Virus record (IMG/VR): IMGVR_UViG_3300005613_000144
Span: 1-41,894 of that record
Length of the DNA: 41,894 nucleotides
Direction: 5' to 3' (one strand)
Source of the DNA: a virus
The number at the start of each line of letters is the position of its first letter. Within the stretch, counting starts at the first letter, position 1. Made by a program: the position numbers and the translations under genes. Shown one piece after another: positions 29,342 through 38,075 of this stretch. The notes below the pieces were generated by a model, which was not told the DNA's origin, ran no database searches, and worked only from the letters and a program-made list of their open reading frames with translations.

Positions 29342-29811
29342 CTGACGAAACCAAAGAACTCAAAAAGCAAGTAGAAGAACTCAAAAAAGAGAATACAGAA
29401 CTACAACGAGAGTTATCAGTTCATAATTTTCTTGATACTGGCGTTCCACAAGAGCGACTTGATTATCAGCGAGAGTTAAAAAAAGAAATCATTCGCTTGA
29501 AATCTCTTTGTCGCAGAGCAGCAGATGAGATTAGAGATTTAGACAACATTATTATTGATTTTGTTGAAGGTAATGCTTTTCCTCATAAGAACGAAGATGA
29601 CTTATGGATTGGTTATTCGTCAGCCAATCTTCTAAGCCGACTTGACGGCAGAACCAAAGGTGGTTATGTTGAGAACTATGATGATCTTCAATTAGAAATG
29701 AAAGTTCTTGACGGACATTATCAATTTGATGACTCAAAATGGTATAACTGTGCTCACCACGATGCCGGTTATCCAGACCAAGAATGTACTTGTGAGGAGA
29801 ACGAAGAATGA
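29338..29811 (+). CDS. Coiled-coil protein with C-terminal Cys/His segment
   Basis: The 157-residue product has an N-terminal coiled coil (about residues 3-65, ELKKQVEELKKENTELQREL), a middle region without a recognised fold, and a C-terminal segment with three Cys and three His (WYNCAHHDAGY...ECTCEE) that may bind metal. Its first 50 residues are encoded by a 143-bp segment duplicated at 31035-31177. Overlaps both neighbours by ATGA/GAATGA junctions. Confidence 0.6.
   Translation: MTDETKELKKQVEELKKENTELQRELSVHNFLDTGVPQERLDYQRELKKEIIRLKSLCRRAADEIRDLDNIIIDFVEGNAFPHKNEDDLWIGYSSANLLSRLDGRTKGGYVENYDDLQLEMKVLDGHYQFDDSKWYNCAHHDAGYPDQECTCEENEE
29345..29487 (+). repeat. 143-bp direct repeat, copy 1
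   Basis: Matches 31035-31177 with four mismatches by eye in 143 bp (at 29351, 29391, 29405 and 29421). It encodes the coiled-coil start of the 29338 gene. The high identity in a coding region indicates a recent duplication or conversion. Confidence 0.9.
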
Positions 29812-30542: not shown

Positions 30543-30571
30543 TTGACACCCGATCCCAGACAGGGTATATT
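30543..30571 (+). promoter_or_regulatory. Sigma70 promoter for the tRNA-like RNA
   Basis: TTGACA (30543-30548), 17-bp spacer, TATATT (30566-30571). The expected start site, about 7 nt beyond the -10, falls at 30578-30580, exactly at the first base of the acceptor-like stem of the RNA. The RNA may therefore need no 5' processing. Confidence 0.82.
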
Positions 30572-30578
30572 ATGAATA

Positions 30579-30694
30579 TAGAGTGAGGCGGTATTACGCA
30601 GGGTTCTACTGAGACGATATACGACCCGGACCAAGGAATAAGAGTCTTAAAAAGGAATACTTGGTCAATTGCAGGTTCAAATCCTGCCACTCTA
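30579..30694 (+). ncRNA. 116-nt tRNA-like RNA with enlarged anticodon and variable arms
   Basis: The ends pair in a perfect 7-bp acceptor-like stem (TAGAGTG at 30579-30585 with CACTCTA at 30688-30694). Directly before the 3' strand lies a perfect T arm (GCAGG, loop TTCAAAT, CCTGC, 30671-30687) with the internal GGTTCAAATCC box. The rest can fold as a 3-bp D-like arm (GCG/CGC, 30588-30599), a 5-bp arm (GGGTT/GACCC, 30601-30627) with a 17-nt loop, and a 7-bp arm (GACCAAG/CTTGGTC, 30629-30666) with a 24-nt loop. No ordinary 7-nt anticodon loop can be placed and no CCA is encoded. It may be a stable tRNA-derived RNA or an intron-bearing tRNA. Confidence 0.65.
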
Positions 30695-30711
30695 TTGCAT
30701 AATGAAGTTAC

Positions 30712-30726
30712 CCCTCTTGTAGAGGG
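30712..30726 (+). other. Hairpin downstream of the tRNA-like RNA
   Basis: CCCTCT (30712-30717) and AGAGGG (30721-30726) form a 6-bp stem with a TGT loop, 17 nt after the RNA 3' end. No T-run follows, so it may be a processing or pausing signal rather than a terminator; readthrough would express the 30761 gene. Confidence 0.4.
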
Positions 30727-30760
30727 TTGGTTGCCTAACACCTTTTTAGGAGAGAAGAAA

Positions 30761-30979
30761 ATGAAGTTTATCATTACAGATAGAGACGACTGTGGTTATT
30801 ACACCGAAGATGGATTTGTCGAATACCCTGAAAAGGCGCTGGAGTTTGATTCTTTGGAGAGCTTTGTAAGTTGGGCTACCGAAATGAATATCCCACGCTT
30901 CAAGATTTATGCCCCAAAAGAAGGTAAAAACGAAAATGGCGAACATCATATGATTTATTGTATGAGCGATTATGATTGA
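30761..30979 (+). CDS. Small acidic protein, unknown
   Basis: The 72-residue product starts MKFIITDRDDCGYYTEDGFV and has alternating short strands and a helix (LESFVSWATEMN). Start ATG 30761 is preceded by TTTTTAGGAGAG, a strong ribosome-binding site; the in-frame upstream region overlaps the RNA gene and is not coding. No family was recognised. Confidence 0.6.
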   Translation: MKFIITDRDDCGYYTEDGFVEYPEKALEFDSLESFVSWATEMNIPRFKIYAPKEGKNENGEHHMIYCMSDYD

Positions 30980-30997: not shown

Positions 30998-31342
30998 ATG
31001 AGCGGAGTATTATCGTGGCGGGAAAAGCAAGCTAACGAAATCAAAGAACTCAAAAAGCAAGTAGAAGAACTCAAAAAAGAAAATACAGAACTACAGCGAG
31101 AGTTATCAGTCCATAATTTTCTTGATACTGGCGTTCCACAAGAGCGACTTGATTATCAGCGAGAGTTAAAAAAAGAACTAAACGAATTTCGTTATCTCTA
31201 CGGAAGTGTCATTTCTCGCATCAACAAGTTGGAAGACGACACAAGAGCAGCGATAGAGTTTGCCGACCTCGCAGAAGACGATAGGGGAACTGAAATAATT
31301 TTAGAGTTCTGCGACGACATTACAAAGTTGGTTGGAGAGTAA
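30998..31342 (+). CDS. Coiled-coil protein sharing a duplicated N-terminus
   Basis: The 114-residue product starts MSGVLSWREKQANEIKELKK. About residues 14-60 are nearly identical to residues 3-50 of the 29338 product (same 143-bp repeat). The remainder is a different helical region with acidic composition. A strong ribosome-binding site (AAGGAG) is present. The shared coiled coil could allow the two proteins to form mixed oligomers; function unknown. Confidence 0.62.
   Translation: MSGVLSWREKQANEIKELKKQVEELKKENTELQRELSVHNFLDTGVPQERLDYQRELKKELNEFRYLYGSVISRINKLEDDTRAAIEFADLAEDDRGTEIILEFCDDITKLVGE
31035..31177 (+). repeat. 143-bp direct repeat, copy 2
   Basis: Second copy of the segment at 29345-29487, 1690 bp downstream in the same orientation and same reading frame relative to its gene. 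The sequences differ at four positions by eye; outside the repeat the two genes are unrelated. Confidence 0.9.
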
Positions 31343-32591: not shown

Positions 32592-33344
32592 AGAAATGTT
32601 ATTTACAAGATACGAATCGAAGGATGTGAAAGGTTTTACATAGGATCGGCGGTTGACTTCAAAAAGAGAAGACTTCATCACCTATCAGAACTCCGCCGCT
32701 CTGCCCACAACAACAGACACTTACAAAGAATATTTGAAAAATATGGAGAAGACAGTTTCTCTTTTCAAATTCTGGAAGAGGTTTCAAAATCTGAGTATCT
32801 TTTAGAGGCAGAGCAGAAGTGGATTGATAAATTCGATTTCTCCCTGCTAATAAACATTTGTCAGAAGGCGGGCAACACTTTGGGTAGGAAACATACAGAA
32901 AGTGCAAAGCAAAAAATAAGCGAGAATCATCACGATGTTTCTGGCGAGAATAACCCAATGTTTGGGAAAAGAGGAAACCTTAGTCCGAACTATGGTAAGT
33001 CTCACTCCGAAGAGACAAAGAGAAAAATCTCAGAAGCCACCAAGGGCAGAGAGAGTGTCTGGAAAGATAAAAAAAGACCAGAGCATTCTGAACTTATGGC
33101 AGGTGAAAACAACCCATTTTATGGAAAGAGCCATTCCGATGAGGCAAGGGCAAAGATATCAAGCAAAGCAAAAGAAAGAGTAATGTCAAGAGGTGGTCAG
33201 AAAATCAACATAGACATTGCTCGTGAGATCAGAGCGCGTTATAATGAAGGTGGGGTTACAATCACCGCACTCGCAAAAGAATACGGACTATCAAGAACTT
33301 ATTGTGGAAAACTTTTAAAAGGAGAATATTGGAATGAAGATTGA
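32589..33344 (+). CDS. GIY-YIG homing endonuclease with NUMOD3 repeats
   Basis: The 251-residue protein has a GIY-YIG catalytic domain at the N-terminus ([20 protein letters not shown], then a charged helix with [11 protein letters not shown]). At least three NUMOD3-type DNA-binding repeats follow ([44 protein letters not shown]), and a C-terminal helix-turn-helix ([20 protein letters not shown]). It is a free-standing mobile endonuclease; its target is probably the adjacent dnaE gene, whose start it overlaps by 11 nt. Confidence 0.9.
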
Positions 33345-34920
33345 TCCGGTCGCTGACAAAGTACCATACGTTAACCTACACGCCCACACAGTTATGGGTT
33401 CTATTTTTGATGCTATTGGGTATCCCGAAGAGCATTTTAATTTTTGCTATGAGAATGGTGGCGATGCGATGGCGATCACGGATCACGGAAATATGAATTC
33501 CGTTCCTGCTGCTGTCCTACACGTCCAGAAAATGAAAGCGGAAGGCAAGAACTTTAAGCCAATCTTTGGTGTAGAAGCTTATTTCATTCCATCAATTGAA
33601 GAGTGGAAGCACGAATATGAAGAAGCAAAGAAAGACAAAAAGCGAAGTAAAACACTTGCCAAAGAAGTTACTGCGACGACTGTTGAGGACGAAGCTGCGA
33701 GTAAGAAAGCAGTTCGAAACATTCTCAATAGAAGGCGACATCTTATTCTCCTTGCGCAAGATCAAGAAGGATTGAACAATCTCTTCGGTCTAATCTCAGA
33801 ATCGTTCAAGCCAGGGAATTATTATCGATATCCCCGTGTCGATTATAAGATGCTAAAAAAGTATTCTAAGGGCGTCATGGCGGCATCTGCTTGCTTGGGC
33901 GGTGTCTATGCTGGAAACTTCTGGGAAAACCGCGAGGAGGGCGAAGAAGCGGTCCTGAACGCAATGCGAGACACCACAAGGAACATGATGGACATCTTTG
34001 GTGATCGCTGGTTTGGCGAGCTTCAATGGAACAATGTCCCAGAACAACATCAGCTTAATAAACATATCATTCGGATGCACAAAGAGTTTGGAATCAAGCT
34101 TATCTCGACTTCTGACTCGCACTATCCAAACCCAGATGCTTGGAAGGACCGCGAACTTTATAAGCGTCTTGGTTGGCTTGGTAAGTCAAAGCCTGCTTAT
34201 GAAAGCTCGGATCTTCCAGAGGGGACCGAAGAAATTGGATATGAACTCTTCCCTCGTAATGGAAATCAAATGTGGGAAGCTTACAAGAAGTATTCTCAAG
34301 AGTGTGGAGTTGAATACGATGACAATCTTGTATTGGAATCTATCACGAACACTCACATGATCGCACATCAAATGGTGGATGATTTCCTTCCAGACAACGA
34401 AGTTCGTCTGCCTGACTTTGTTGTTCCTGCTGGTGAGACTTCTGACTCTGCTTTGGAAAAGTTCTGTATGGAAGGTCTTCGCCTCAAAGGTCTTCATGAT
34501 AATGAAGAATACACTGAACGACTTCGTATGGAGCTTGGAGTTATCGCTGCTCGTGGTTTCTCAAAGTACTTCCTAACAATGGAGCAGATCAGCACAAAAG
34601 CAAAGCAAATGATGCTTACCGGACCTGGACGTGGTTCTGCTGCTGGCTCTCTTGTTGCTTATGCTCTGGACATTACCCAAGTAGATCCTCTCAAATATGG
34701 TCTTCAGTTCTCTCGCTTCATGATTGCTACGCCTCTCATCGGTATTATTGATGAAAATAGCGATACGAAACAAAAGACAGAGGCGGTCCAATTCGAGACA
34801 GACAGTGGTAAGACCATCACGCTCTCGCCAGAAGTAGAGATAAAGGTAAAAAGAAACGATAGTATCATCTCGACTCTCGTCAAGAACTTACAAATAGGTG
34901 ATGAAATATTATCGGCATAA
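33334..34920 (+). CDS. dnaE: DNA polymerase III alpha subunit, N-terminal half (split)
   Basis: The 528-residue half contains the PHP domain ([38 protein letters not shown]), the thumb/palm region, and [20 protein letters not shown]. Homology to DnaE ends at FSRFM (residues 459-463), just before where PDIDYD should follow. The last 65 residues are intein-like and end at TAA 34918. The remaining catalytic part is encoded from 35928. Alone it lacks the catalytic aspartates. The start overlaps the GIY-YIG gene; AAGGAG precedes it. Confidence 0.9.
34726..34917 (+). other. Reduced intein-like segment at the end of the DnaE N-half
   Basis: About 64 residues after the polymerase homology include [20 protein letters not shown] and [12 protein letters not shown]. 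These resemble intein block B and its following strands (GxxIxLTPxH ... LKxGDEI). The usual block A (Cys or Ser first residue plus about 30 residues) is missing, and the block B His is Val. If polymerase spacing is kept as in E. coli (six residues between FL/FM and MPD), the intein would begin at A465. Confidence 0.5.
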
Positions 34921-34932
34921 AAAGGCTACCCT

Positions 34933-34943
34933 ACTATTTACTA
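34933..34943 (+). promoter_or_regulatory. Candidate late promoter motif ACTATTTACTA before the LAGLIDADG gene
   Basis: Exact copy of the motif found before the sheath and GIY-YIG genes, followed directly by ATAGGAGGATAGG, the ribosome-binding site region. CTACCCTA (34926-34933) can pair imperfectly with TAGGAGGATAG, so a weak RBS-hiding structure like that of the GIY-YIG gene is possible. Confidence 0.45.
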
Positions 34944-34961
34944 ATAGGAGGATAGGCGATT

Positions 34962-35927
34962 ATGAGATATCAAAATAAGAACGAAGAATACTTCACTAAA
35001 ACTAACAAACATAACTCTTACTGGGCAGGCTTTATTGGAGCAGACGGTTATGTAAACGAGGACAAGAATACTCTACAAATAAGTCTTTCCGCAAAAGATA
35101 AAGAGCATTTAGAAAAGCTAAAAAATGAATTAAACAAGGACTATGAAATAAAAACCAGAAAGAATACTGGTCCTTGGGCAGCAGAGGAAACCTATTACTG
35201 CTCGCTTTGTTTTATTTCTGAGCGAACTGTGGAGGCACTAAAAAGAAACTGGAAGATTCATCAAAGAAAAACACATACCTTAACCTTTCCGCAAGACATC
35301 TCAATAGAAGAAAAGAAAGGTTATTTGTGTGGATACATCGATGGAGATGGTTGTATAAATGTGAAAAAGAACTCTCGTGGAAAAATACAACTTTCCATAA
35401 ATGGAAATGAAGAATTCTTAGAAGGTGTAGTGAAGTTTCTAAAAGAAGAAGGCGGAATAAAAATAAAGAATAATCTTTATCCAAGCAGGAATATTTTCGT
35501 TTTCTCGGTACTTGGTAAAACAGCACTTTCAGTTCTGGACTTTCTATATGATGAACATTTACCATTAATGGAGAGAAAGTGGGCGAAGTATCTGGACAAC
35601 AAGGAGAGGAGATTTGGACAATACATTCCATGGACGAAGGAAGAAGAAATAGTATTGCGTGAGAACTATGAAAAAAGTAGTTCAGTAGAACTTCATAAGA
35701 AGTTTTTCAGCAACAGGAGTTTCTTCTCAGTAGAAAAAAAGATAACAGAAATGGGATTAACGAAGAGACCTCAGCCACAGAAGATCTGGACAGAAGAGGA
35801 AGATGAGAAATTTGTTGAAGCATTAAAAAATAACTTGACTTCCAGAGTCATTCATGAGACACTATTTCCGTATCGCACTTTTAGTTCAATAAGAAACAAG
35901 AGAAACAAATTAGTAAAGAGAGGATAA
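34962..35927 (+). CDS. LAGLIDADG homing endonuclease between the dnaE halves
   Basis: The 321-residue protein has two LAGLIDADG-type motifs, SYWAGFIGADGYV and GYLCGYIDGDGCI, about 105 residues apart, each with its catalytic acidic residue. The C-terminal third has two Trp-bearing Myb/SANT-like helical units (IPWTKEEEIVLRENY and KIWTEEEDEKFVEAL), probably extra DNA-binding modules. It has its own motif and ribosome-binding site and is not fused to the polymerase. Its site between intein-like halves is where an endonuclease domain sits in a full-length intein. The stop directly abuts the GTG of the C-half. Confidence 0.88.
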   Translation: MRYQNKNEEYFTKTNKHNSYWAGFIGADGYVNEDKNTLQISLSAKDKEHLEKLKNELNKDYEIKTRKNTGPWAAEETYYCSLCFISERTVEALKRNWKIHQRKTHTLTFPQDISIEEKKGYLCGYIDGDGCINVKKNSRGKIQLSINGNEEFLEGVVKFLKEEGGIKIKNNLYPSRNIFVFSVLGKTALSVLDFLYDEHLPLMERKWAKYLDNKERRFGQYIPWTKEEEIVLRENYEKSSSVELHKKFFSNRSFFSVEKKITEMGLTKRPQPQKIWTEEEDEKFVEALKNNLTSRVIHETLFPYRTFSSIRNKRNKLVKRG

Positions 35928-36029
35928 GTGAAAATAACGAACATTACTTTTTTGGAAGAAGCAGAGAGGGGTATCGTTCCGGTTCCTGCGGGTACATCAA
36001 AGACTATCGAAGGCATACAAGTAAGGAAT
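35928..36029 (+). other. Reduced intein-like segment at the start of the DnaE C-half
   Basis: The 34 residues before the polymerase homology end in IEGIQVRN, followed by TKDTNMPDIDYD. This resembles the intein C-terminal block (xxGIxVHN, then Cys, Ser or Thr), with Asn34 as last intein residue and Thr35 as +1 nucleophile. The penultimate His is Arg, and the block F consensus is poorly kept. The match is suggestive, not proven. Confidence 0.5.
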
Positions 36030-38075
36030 ACAAAAGATACCAATATGCCTGATATAGATTATGACGTAGCAGACTCCATGCATTTGAAGGAAACTCTTGT
36101 TCAAGACTGGGGTGATGATAAGGTTGCTCCTATCTCAAACTGGAATACACTTCAGCTTAAATCTCTTATCAAGGACATCTCAAAGTTCTACGGCATTCCG
36201 TTCACAGAAGTTAATTCTGTCACATCGGCAATGGTTGGAGAAGCAATTGGTCCAGCTAAGAAGAAGCACGGTCTTGCGGCTGGTCTTTACAATCCAACCT
36301 TTGAAGACCTTATGGAGTTCAGCGATTCTTTGAAGAACTTCTTGGCGAAGTATCCAAATGTGAAGACTCACGTTGAAACACTTGTTGGTCAAGTTCGGAG
36401 TTGTTCCCGACATGCTGGCGGCGTTGTGGTTGCTGAGAGCTTGGACTCCCGTATGCCGTTGATTAACTCTGGTGGTGTTCGCCAAACTCCTTGGTCTGAG
36501 GGGCAGAACGTTCGACACCTTGAACCAATGGGTTTCATTAAGTTCGACCTTCTTGGATTATCAACCTTGAAGATGATTGAGGGTGCTATCTCTCATATCC
36601 TTCGTCGCCATCACGGGATTGAAGACCCAACATTCGAAGACATTAAGAAATACTACGATGCTAACCTTCATCCAGATGTGATTGACCTGAACGACCAAAA
36701 GGTATATGAAAACATTTTCCACAAAGGAAAGTGGGCAGGAGTGTTCCAATTCACAGAGACTGGTGCTCAAAACTTCTGTGTTGAGGCTAAACCAAAGAAT
36801 CTGATTGACTTGGCGGCTATTACTTCCATCTATCGTCCTGGTCCGCTCTCTGCGAATGTCCACGTTGATTATGTTGAGTCGAAGAATAATCCTCAGTATG
36901 TCAAGTATATCAACAAAGAACATCAAGATATCACAGAAGAGACCTATGGATATCTTATCTTCCAAGAGCAGATTGCTTCCATGGCTCATCGTCTTGGAAA
37001 GAATATCAGTCTTGATGAAGGTAATCTTCTTCGTAAGGTCTTGACCAAGAAGGGTACAGGTAAGGGCGCACAGGTCAAAGAATCACTGCGAATGCGATTC
37101 ATTGAGGGCTGTGTAGAAAAAGGAATGAAGAAGACAACTGCTCAAAGGCTTTGGGAAAAGTTTGAATACTTCAATGCCTACGGCTTCAACAAGTCTCACG
37201 CAGTTTCTTACTGTATTATTTCTTACCAGTGTGCTTGGCTTCTGAACTATTACCAGTCAGAATGGATGGCAGCATTCCTCGACAAAGAACCAGAGTCAAG
37301 AAAAGAAAAGGCAATCAACATCGCGAAGTCTTTCGGCTTCAAGATTCGCAGCCTGAACGTCAACTCTTCGGGTCGTGTCTGGGAAATCTCAGAGGATGGT
37401 ACAACCCTCATTCAGCCATTGTCTTCTGTCAAGGGATTAGGTGATTCAGCGATTGACCAGATTGTTCGTAACCGACCATTCAATACAATCGAGGACTTCC
37501 TGTTCAATGAAAACGTGGTTTACTCAAAGCTGAACAAGAAGGCGCTTGATGTTCTTTGTCGCTCCGGTGCTCTTGATTCCTTGATGGATGATCGCTTCAC
37601 TGGTGGAAAGCATTTCTGGTCTGCTATTTGTGTTGACCGACCTCGGAAGCCAAAGAACCTGGAAGAGAACATTGTTCTTTATCGTCCAGAAGGCGCATTC
37701 TCAGATGAGGAAAAGATTAGTTATCTTGTTGAGCTAACTGGTGTTTTCCCGTTCGACCGAGTGATGAAGGAAGATCTTTACAAGAAGCTAAAAGAAAATA
37801 TGATCCCATCCATCGCAGAATATAATCCAGATTACGGAGATGTTGTTTGGTTTATTCCTCGCAAGGTTGTTCCAAAGAAGACAAAGAATGGAAAGGATTA
37901 CTGGATTCTCGAAGTTATTGACGATACAAACAGTCTTACAAAGGTTCGATGTTGGGGCATTGGTGAACACGACATGGTTCACCTGAATCGTCCTTACATG
38001 GCGAAGCTGGACTACAATGGCAAGTGGGGATTCTCGACAAGAAATTTACGAAGGAATTTTAGGATTCTTGCTTGA
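35928..38075 (+). CDS. dnaE: DNA polymerase III alpha subunit, C-terminal half (split)
   Basis: The 715-residue half starts at GTG 35928. After a 34-residue intein-like lead it carries MPDIDYDVAD (D42, D44 equal the catalytic E. coli D401 and D403), SRHAGGVVVAES, FIKFDLLGLSTL, GVFQFTETGAQNF, SIYRPGPLSA, QEQIASMA and AYGFNKSHAVSYCIISYQ. Helix-hairpin-helix (PLSSVKGLGDSAI) and OB-fold (near residues 625-710) domains follow. All conserved polymerase motifs I can check are intact. It must join or pair with the N-half to work. Confidence 0.92.
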   Translation: MKITNITFLEEAERGIVPVPAGTSKTIEGIQVRNTKDTNMPDIDYDVADSMHLKETLVQDWGDDKVAPISNWNTLQLKSLIKDISKFYGIPFTEVNSVTSAMVGEAIGPAKKKHGLAAGLYNPTFEDLMEFSDSLKNFLAKYPNVKTHVETLVGQVRSCSRHAGGVVVAESLDSRMPLINSGGVRQTPWSEGQNVRHLEPMGFIKFDLLGLSTLKMIEGAISHILRRHHGIEDPTFEDIKKYYDANLHPDVIDLNDQKVYENIFHKGKWAGVFQFTETGAQNFCVEAKPKNLIDLAAITSIYRPGPLSANVHVDYVESKNNPQYVKYINKEHQDITEETYGYLIFQEQIASMAHRLGKNISLDEGNLLRKVLTKKGTGKGAQVKESLRMRFIEGCVEKGMKKTTAQRLWEKFEYFNAYGFNKSHAVSYCIISYQCAWLLNYYQSEWMAAFLDKEPESRKEKAINIAKSFGFKIRSLNVNSSGRVWEISEDGTTLIQPLSSVKGLGDSAIDQIVRNRPFNTIEDFLFNENVVYSKLNKKALDVLCRSGALDSLMDDRFTGGKHFWSAICVDRPRKPKNLEENIVLYRPEGAFSDEEKISYLVELTGVFPFDRVMKEDLYKKLKENMIPSIAEYNPDYGDVVWFIPRKVVPKKTKNGKDYWILEVIDDTNSLTKVRCWGIGEHDMVHLNRPYMAKLDYNGKWGFSTRNLRRNFRILA

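Follow-up and report, generated by a model that had tools for sequence, protein, structure and literature searches.

A tRNA-shaped, apparently non-decoding RNA family of environmental phages that occurs alone, with a second conserved element and inside a tmRNA

The IMG/VR virus record IMGVR_UViG_3300005613_000144, analysed here over its full 41,894 bases (the window), carries a 118-nt RNA that folds like a class II tRNA and that belongs, virtually certainly, to a structured noncoding RNA family. This family is undescribed and absent from Rfam 15. Its members are almost certainly non-decoding, since the enlarged anticodon loop can pair with the loop of the variable arm and no CCA is conserved. 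As judged by sequence comparison, the same domain can stand alone with a promoter of its own, beside or inside a second conserved unit (element 2), or within a loop of a phage-encoded tmRNA. We favour, at a probability of roughly 55%, a portable RNA that is shaped like a class II tRNA, does not decode and would work via its conserved inner arms. The family is small and well defined, shows covariation, includes natural nested variants and can be searched with a model already at hand; it opens a direct test of why phages keep tRNA-shaped RNAs that are unable to decode.

An initial annotation of the locus had described a promoter-locked, tRNA-like RNA of 116 nt that is not a normal tRNA. The RNA proved real, its length being 118 nt instead (Table 1), and its minimum free energy of -35.9 kcal/mol (z = -3.4) was reached by none of 200 shuffled sequences. 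The architecture described before was found as stated: the terminal stem is perfect and comprises 8 bp (7+1), the base after it is A and not the U of position 8, a CCA is missing, the T arm is perfect, and the two inner loops are enlarged to 17 and 24 nt; that these loops can pair with each other is added here. The loop of the variable-like arm also holds the conserved letters AATAAGA...AGGAATA. ARAGORN, which had been suggested as a check, reported no tRNA or tmRNA in the window by default and none with introns at its normal threshold. The RNA had no match to the Rfam tRNA model (RF00005) at gathering or up to E 10, no match to any Rfam 15 family at gathering, and the local stretch gave no relevant match up to E 10. 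For the product of the small gene downstream, Pfam gave no match.

Table 1. Coordinates of the RNA, its parts and associated elements. Positions refer to the window unless another contig is named.
Feature	Position	Strand	Remarks
Sigma70-type promoter	30543-30571	+	TTGACA (30543-30548), 17-nt spacer, TATATT (30566-30571); 11/12 matches; geometry shared with relatives
tRNA-shaped RNA	30578-30695	+	118 nt; R1 match 147.3 bits (sequence was in the R1 training set); fold z = -3.4; covariation
Acceptor-like stem, 5' strand ATAGAGTG	30578-30585	+	Pairs with 30688-30695; compensatory changes at 6/7 core pairs
D-like arm GCG-GTATTA-CGC	30588-30599	+	Stem invariant; loop variable in distant members, without tRNA GG
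Anticodon-like arm GGGTT/GACCC	30601-30627	+	17-nt loop CTACTGAGACGATATAC; 15-33 nt among relatives
Kissing strand 1, AGAC	30612-30615	+	Maximally TGAGAC (30610-30615); partner 30644-30647
Variable-like arm GACCAAG/CTTGGTC	30629-30666	+	24-nt loop; covariation at 5/7 pairs
Kissing strand 2, GTCT	30644-30647	+	Within the loop of the variable-like arm
T arm GCAGG-TTCAAAT-CCTGC	30671-30687	+	Stem covaries; TTC not conserved across the family
Acceptor-like stem, 3' strand CACTCTAT	30688-30695	+	TGCA next, no CCA
Element 2, short form (AATGAAGTTACCCC...)	30701-30747	+	Closing hairpin GTTGG-TTGC-CTAAC; hairpins compensate between relatives
Shine-Dalgarno-like AGGAGAG and ATG (30761) of next small gene	30748-30763	+	72 aa
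Element 2	L031:13611-13727		Second conserved RNA unit
Element 2	L042:3959-4031		Second conserved RNA unit
Element 2	L096:6701-6900		Second conserved RNA unit
Phage tmRNA hosting the RNA	L084:717-1192		476 nt; E 1.5e-38; tag frame ANNNYFYDSARLAA; complementary ends

An exact 20-mer of the window RNA (GGTTCTACTGAGACGATATA) is present in four other virus contigs, and searches with the patterns GAGGCGGTATTACGC and GGAATNAGAGTCTN6GGAATAC enlarged the set to 26 contigs. Alignment A2 of 19 distinct sequences yielded a covariance model, R1, which scores full-length canonical copies at 135-149 bits. L037, which lies outside the training set, reached 56 bits (E 3e-15), and a last pattern scan of the viral records, scored with R1, added L106 (92 bits), L096 (74) and L103 (70), the other 24 of its 27 new stretches being unrelated sequences. 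All four divergent members left out of R1 were thus recovered, at E 1e-15 to 1e-27, by the kind of covariance search for homologues that had been proposed at the outset. Altogether the family comprises 31 copies in 30 virus records (the window and 29 environmental virus contigs) and 23 distinct full-length sequences; one 280-kb contig (L042) has two of these copies at a distance of 2.5 kb. Further relaxed patterns brought up these members again and otherwise chance matches only. Isolate phages, plasmids and 85,000 cellular genomes gave no convincing homologue with exact patterns or blastn, searches that very divergent relatives could escape. Among cellular genome contigs the 20-base pattern had 0 matches, and a shorter pattern gave six, compared with about seven estimated by chance and none with a convincing fold. 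A match in a Fusobacterium phage (E 0.06) was rejected as it lacked the other arms, as were blast matches to ordinary phage tRNAs, which covered the T arm only. Relatives of the DNA polymerase from isolate phages are all less than 60% identical (best about 30% among the matches listed), so that no cultured system is at hand; a MYXO-CTERM-like protein end suggested a guess at the host, which could not be confirmed.

In alignment A2, 98% of cells are paired under the proposed structure and 9 pairs change on both sides, and sliding the partners by 1-3 columns as a control lowered pairing to 34-43%. With the four divergent members included (23 sequences), 613 of 619 cells pair (99%) and 15 of 27 pairs covary, in an alignment where these members were placed on the structure by hand, a fit that favours pairing counts. 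Covariation is found in the acceptor, the variable arm and the T stem, the acceptor and T arm being maintained through pairing and not through their letters. The inner part behaves differently: the D-like stem GCG/CGC never varies, the anticodon-like stem has one pair changed on both sides, and both stems are nearly invariant together with their flanking loop letters. Part of this conservation reflects recent descent, since most canonical copies are close relatives. The segment lengths (7-2-3-1-5-x-5-1-variable arm-4-5-7-5-7) are those of a class II tRNA, with a 7-bp acceptor, a 5-bp T stem and a T arm that abuts the acceptor with zero nucleotides between them. The anticodon loop measures 15-33 nt in all 23 sequences, compared with 7 nt in tRNA. 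T loops read TTCAAAT in the window and TGARAAY, TTTAAAC or TAAAAAT elsewhere, usually retaining T at the first and A at the fifth position; D loops are without the tRNA GG, and a conserved CCA was not found after the acceptor, where TGCA, TCCA, TTTT, TATA or TCAA follow. The view of a tRNA-like RNA that is not a normal tRNA is borne out by this layout, and conservation, on which the initial annotation had made its proposal depend, is present in the form of a covarying family. Covariation also rules out a chance promoter followed by chance hairpins. A coding frame (MIYDPDQGIRVLK...) was found in 8 loci and is broken elsewhere by TAA (GTC TAA in many members), and non-synonymous and frame-shifting changes rule out a protein-coding gene. 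Antisense ORFs across the RNA follow from its conserved letters, and for a 16S-like motif (GCGGTATTACG) Rfam gave no rRNA match.

The anticodon loop is complementary to the loop of the variable arm in nearly all members, by means of differing, compensating sequences. Canonical copies combine AGAC with GUCU, one pair varying between C-G, U-G and U-A, and the divergent members have CUGUUU/AAACAG (L037), CUGGU/ACCAG (L096) and CUGGC/GCCAG (L103); the match in L106 is weak, with 3 pairs. As the canonical and divergent sets differ in register by a few bases, the support for kissing consists in recurrence and compensation and not in a column-perfect helix, and the loops could pair within one molecule or between two.

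The promoter was likewise found as described before, its predicted +1 (30578) being the first base of the terminal stem. In a scan of the window alone such a promoter is not significant (8 sites compared with 7.4 in shuffles). It is raised above chance by the relatives, through shared 20-mers, the covarying family and the recurrence of the promoter placement: among 16 scored copies, several of them close kin, a sigma70-like promoter sets +1 within 3 nt of the first acceptor nucleotide in 11, and exactly on it in seven.

Directly 3' of the RNA, or enclosing it, 25 of the 31 copies have element 2, which reads AATGAAG[TAC]TACCC...GGGTGGG, followed by a hairpin, a further hairpin with a TTGG loop and a T run, and then a Shine-Dalgarno sequence; in the window the terminator-like end is a hairpin with a U run at 30743-30747. 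It has three hairpins and a tiny ATG-AAG-NTA-CCC reading frame, and the loop of the first hairpin hosts varied inserts: the tRNA-shaped RNA in some cases and stretches of about 5 or about 42 nt in others. In L031 and at the first copy of L042, element 2 lies 470-650 nt downstream of the RNA with a promoter-like sequence of its own, and it is therefore regarded as a separate unit; at L037 and L106 it is missing. Compensating changes in its hairpins (GTTAGG/CCTAAC, GGTCAG/CTGACC, GGCAGG/CCTGCC and GTGGG/CCCAC) provide comparative support, and this is the only kind, because element 2 of L031 showed no excess stability in a free-energy test (z 0.06). Rfam gave no match for element 2.

Three copies are nested in larger RNAs. 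The first hairpin of element 2 carries the RNA as part of its loop in L096 and L103, and in L084 the RNA fills the loop of the CCTA/TAGG hairpin of a phage tmRNA, whose counterpart in the tmRNA of a 232-kb phage contig is a 7-nt loop. The RNA tolerates such embedding: when refolded, each of the three gives the closed cloverleaf again. For L084 we consider an assembly chimera unlikely, since both tmRNA halves form one gene by order and pairing. Because of the nesting, the acceptor end is not free in these phages unless the RNA is cut out. To our knowledge, and with an incomplete coverage of the literature, no phage tmRNA with an extra closed tRNA-shaped domain has been described; as an RNA domain inside a tmRNA loop it offers a natural example of modular RNA architecture. 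Further phage tmRNAs were seen in L037, G001, G002 and G019. The L084 contig, classed as viral, also has a complete ATP-type phosphoenolpyruvate carboxykinase gene (L084:4397-5854; PF01293, E 2e-168), either an unusual phage metabolic gene or a sign of misclassification.

Some copies lie near tRNA genes. In L037 a tRNA-Gln ends 3 nt before the RNA and a tmRNA follows about 290 nt after it, and several tRNA genes stand beside the divergent copy of L106, a contig in which a group I intron (L106:1899-2091, Rfam 57 bits) was noticed near six tRNA genes. On the minus strand of L058 a tRNA gene is represented by its 5' half (GCGCCCGTAGCTCAGCTGGATAGAGCAACGGC) and breaks off within the anticodon stem shortly upstream of the RNA; this is likely a recombination scar. 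Copies are also frequent at contig ends, with 15 of 28 within 1 kb (e.g. G012, G029 and G031) compared with 3.3 expected; for contigs of at least 20 kb, 6 of 19 copies are near an end compared with 0.9 expected (p about 2e-4, for copies that are not independent). Such clustering is what a repeated, recombining or strain-variable cassette does. No protein gene is a consistent neighbour across the loci beyond genes common to the phage group. In the window, two small coiled-coil genes flank the RNA, and near their starts both contain a 146-nt direct repeat (29342-29487 and 31032-31177, 97% identical) that encodes KELKKQVEELKKENTELQRELSVHNFLDTGVPQERLDYQ; this gene family recurs in most related loci. 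Further downstream (33334-38075) the DNA polymerase III alpha gene is divided into two frames, at 33334-34920 and 35928-38075; an endonuclease-like ORF (34962-35927, GYIDGDGC motif) lies between the halves, and the arrangement is probably that of an intein or split intein.

As most copies have their own promoter and unrelated genes downstream, a free RNA acting in trans is supported, and we consider it fairly probable that the molecule acts as an RNA and not as the leader of one gene. A cis-acting leader, in which the RNA and element 2 would form a riboswitch-like sensor and an attenuator for the downstream small gene, appears unlikely: the window and most canonical copies do have the promoter, then a domain that is closed, resembles an aptamer and has invariant loops, and after it a terminator-like hairpin and a Shine-Dalgarno sequence, but the genes that would be controlled are unrelated among copies, and the remote units of L031 and L042 as well as the tmRNA-embedded copy and the copies free of element 2 are left unexplained. 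In addition, inspection of the window by eye gave no surviving alternative pairing between an acceptor strand and element 2. Where element 2 does follow the RNA, regulation in cis is possible. A trans-acting RNA could, for its part, serve as a tRNA-shaped mimic or scaffold. Since the RNA is also kept in places where its ends are enclosed, a charged CCA end is probably not the working part; and since the invariant letters are in the D-like arm, the anticodon-like arm and the loop of the variable arm, the functional surface is probably made up of these, in the simplest case as a site for protein binding. The acceptor/T-arm half would then mainly be a stable closed end, possibly a handle for tRNA-processing enzymes, and the two kissing inner arms would present a sequence-specific surface to a phage or host protein or ribonucleoprotein. 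That the RNA works by binding a protein which recognises the tRNA-like shape itself is a tentative proposal, to which we give somewhat less than even odds.

The nested copies, in the tmRNA hairpin loop as well as in the first hairpin of element 2, may also be explained by a mobile RNA insert, spread by recombination and cut at its tRNA-like ends by RNase P and a 3' processing nuclease. Such cutting would allow it to occupy the loops of other RNAs without harm, and splicing or an RNA left in two pieces would be possible outcomes. The many different flanks, the excess at contig ends and the two copies in one genome would agree with this. We nevertheless regard it as doubtful, as no catalytic core or splice signal was recognised, the majority of copies stand free behind a promoter, the nested forms may simply be fused domains, and strain mixtures also give clustering at contig ends. 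A module moved by phages into RNA loops, where tRNA-processing enzymes excise it or where it stays, is to be judged with the same reserve; if true, such a module would be mobile at the RNA level while having no ribozyme core. The initial annotation had considered a decoy for host tRNA enzymes or an anti-nuclease sponge. The class II geometry, including the stacking of acceptor and T arm and the T loop, and a phage-borne location sometimes near tRNA genes would suit a decoy that absorbs a host defence nuclease or tRNA enzyme. Yet no anticodon is displayed, which makes anticodon nucleases unlikely targets, the acceptor end is enclosed in the three nested cases, and T-loop TTC and D-loop GG are not conserved, the invariant letters being in the inner arms and not at tRNA landmarks; the idea of a decoy is improbable as a result. 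Least credible of all is a degenerate or intron-containing tRNA gene. The overall geometry would allow it, and ARAGORN at a lowered threshold proposes a tRNA-Ser with a 30-nt intron, but the letters of this 'intron' are among the most conserved and are paired, the Rfam tRNA model finds nothing, and a decaying gene would not covary, so that the covariation already contradicts it. The portable RNA working via its inner arms is thus the reading that we prefer.

Among known RNAs, class II tRNAs (Ser/Leu/Tyr type) share the segment lengths and the T arm placed directly on the acceptor, whereas D-loop GG, U8, a TTC T loop, a conserved CCA and the 7-nt anticodon loop are lacking in the family. Phage tmRNAs are known (PMC9004378) and share the principle of a tRNA-like end on a non-decoding RNA; the family differs from them in its arms, itself lacks a tag reading frame and, taken alone, does not match the tmRNA model (RF00023). 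ROOL and GOLLD are phage-encoded RNAs of unknown function, often near tRNA islands (PMC12286853), but are several times larger, and a Rfam scan of the window and the L037 and L106 loci gave no match to either. The stable RNAs of T4 (species 1 and 2, rnaC and rnaD) are small, come from a tRNA region and have no known function (PMC3014915, PMC9697503). The comparison with T4 made in the initial annotation is apt as an analogy and not as homology, as R1 finds nothing in T4 69.5-74 kb. When folded here, rnaD was not tRNA-like. In rnaC (139 nt, L083:1409-1547) a canonical T arm, CCGGG-TTCGAAT-CCCGG, adjoins an acceptor-like stem of 7 bp that contains two U-U mismatches; unlike the family, its interior consists of one long arm and a variable arm. 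T4 rnaC, which has a long variable-like arm, represents a second tRNA-shaped and apparently non-decoding phage RNA.
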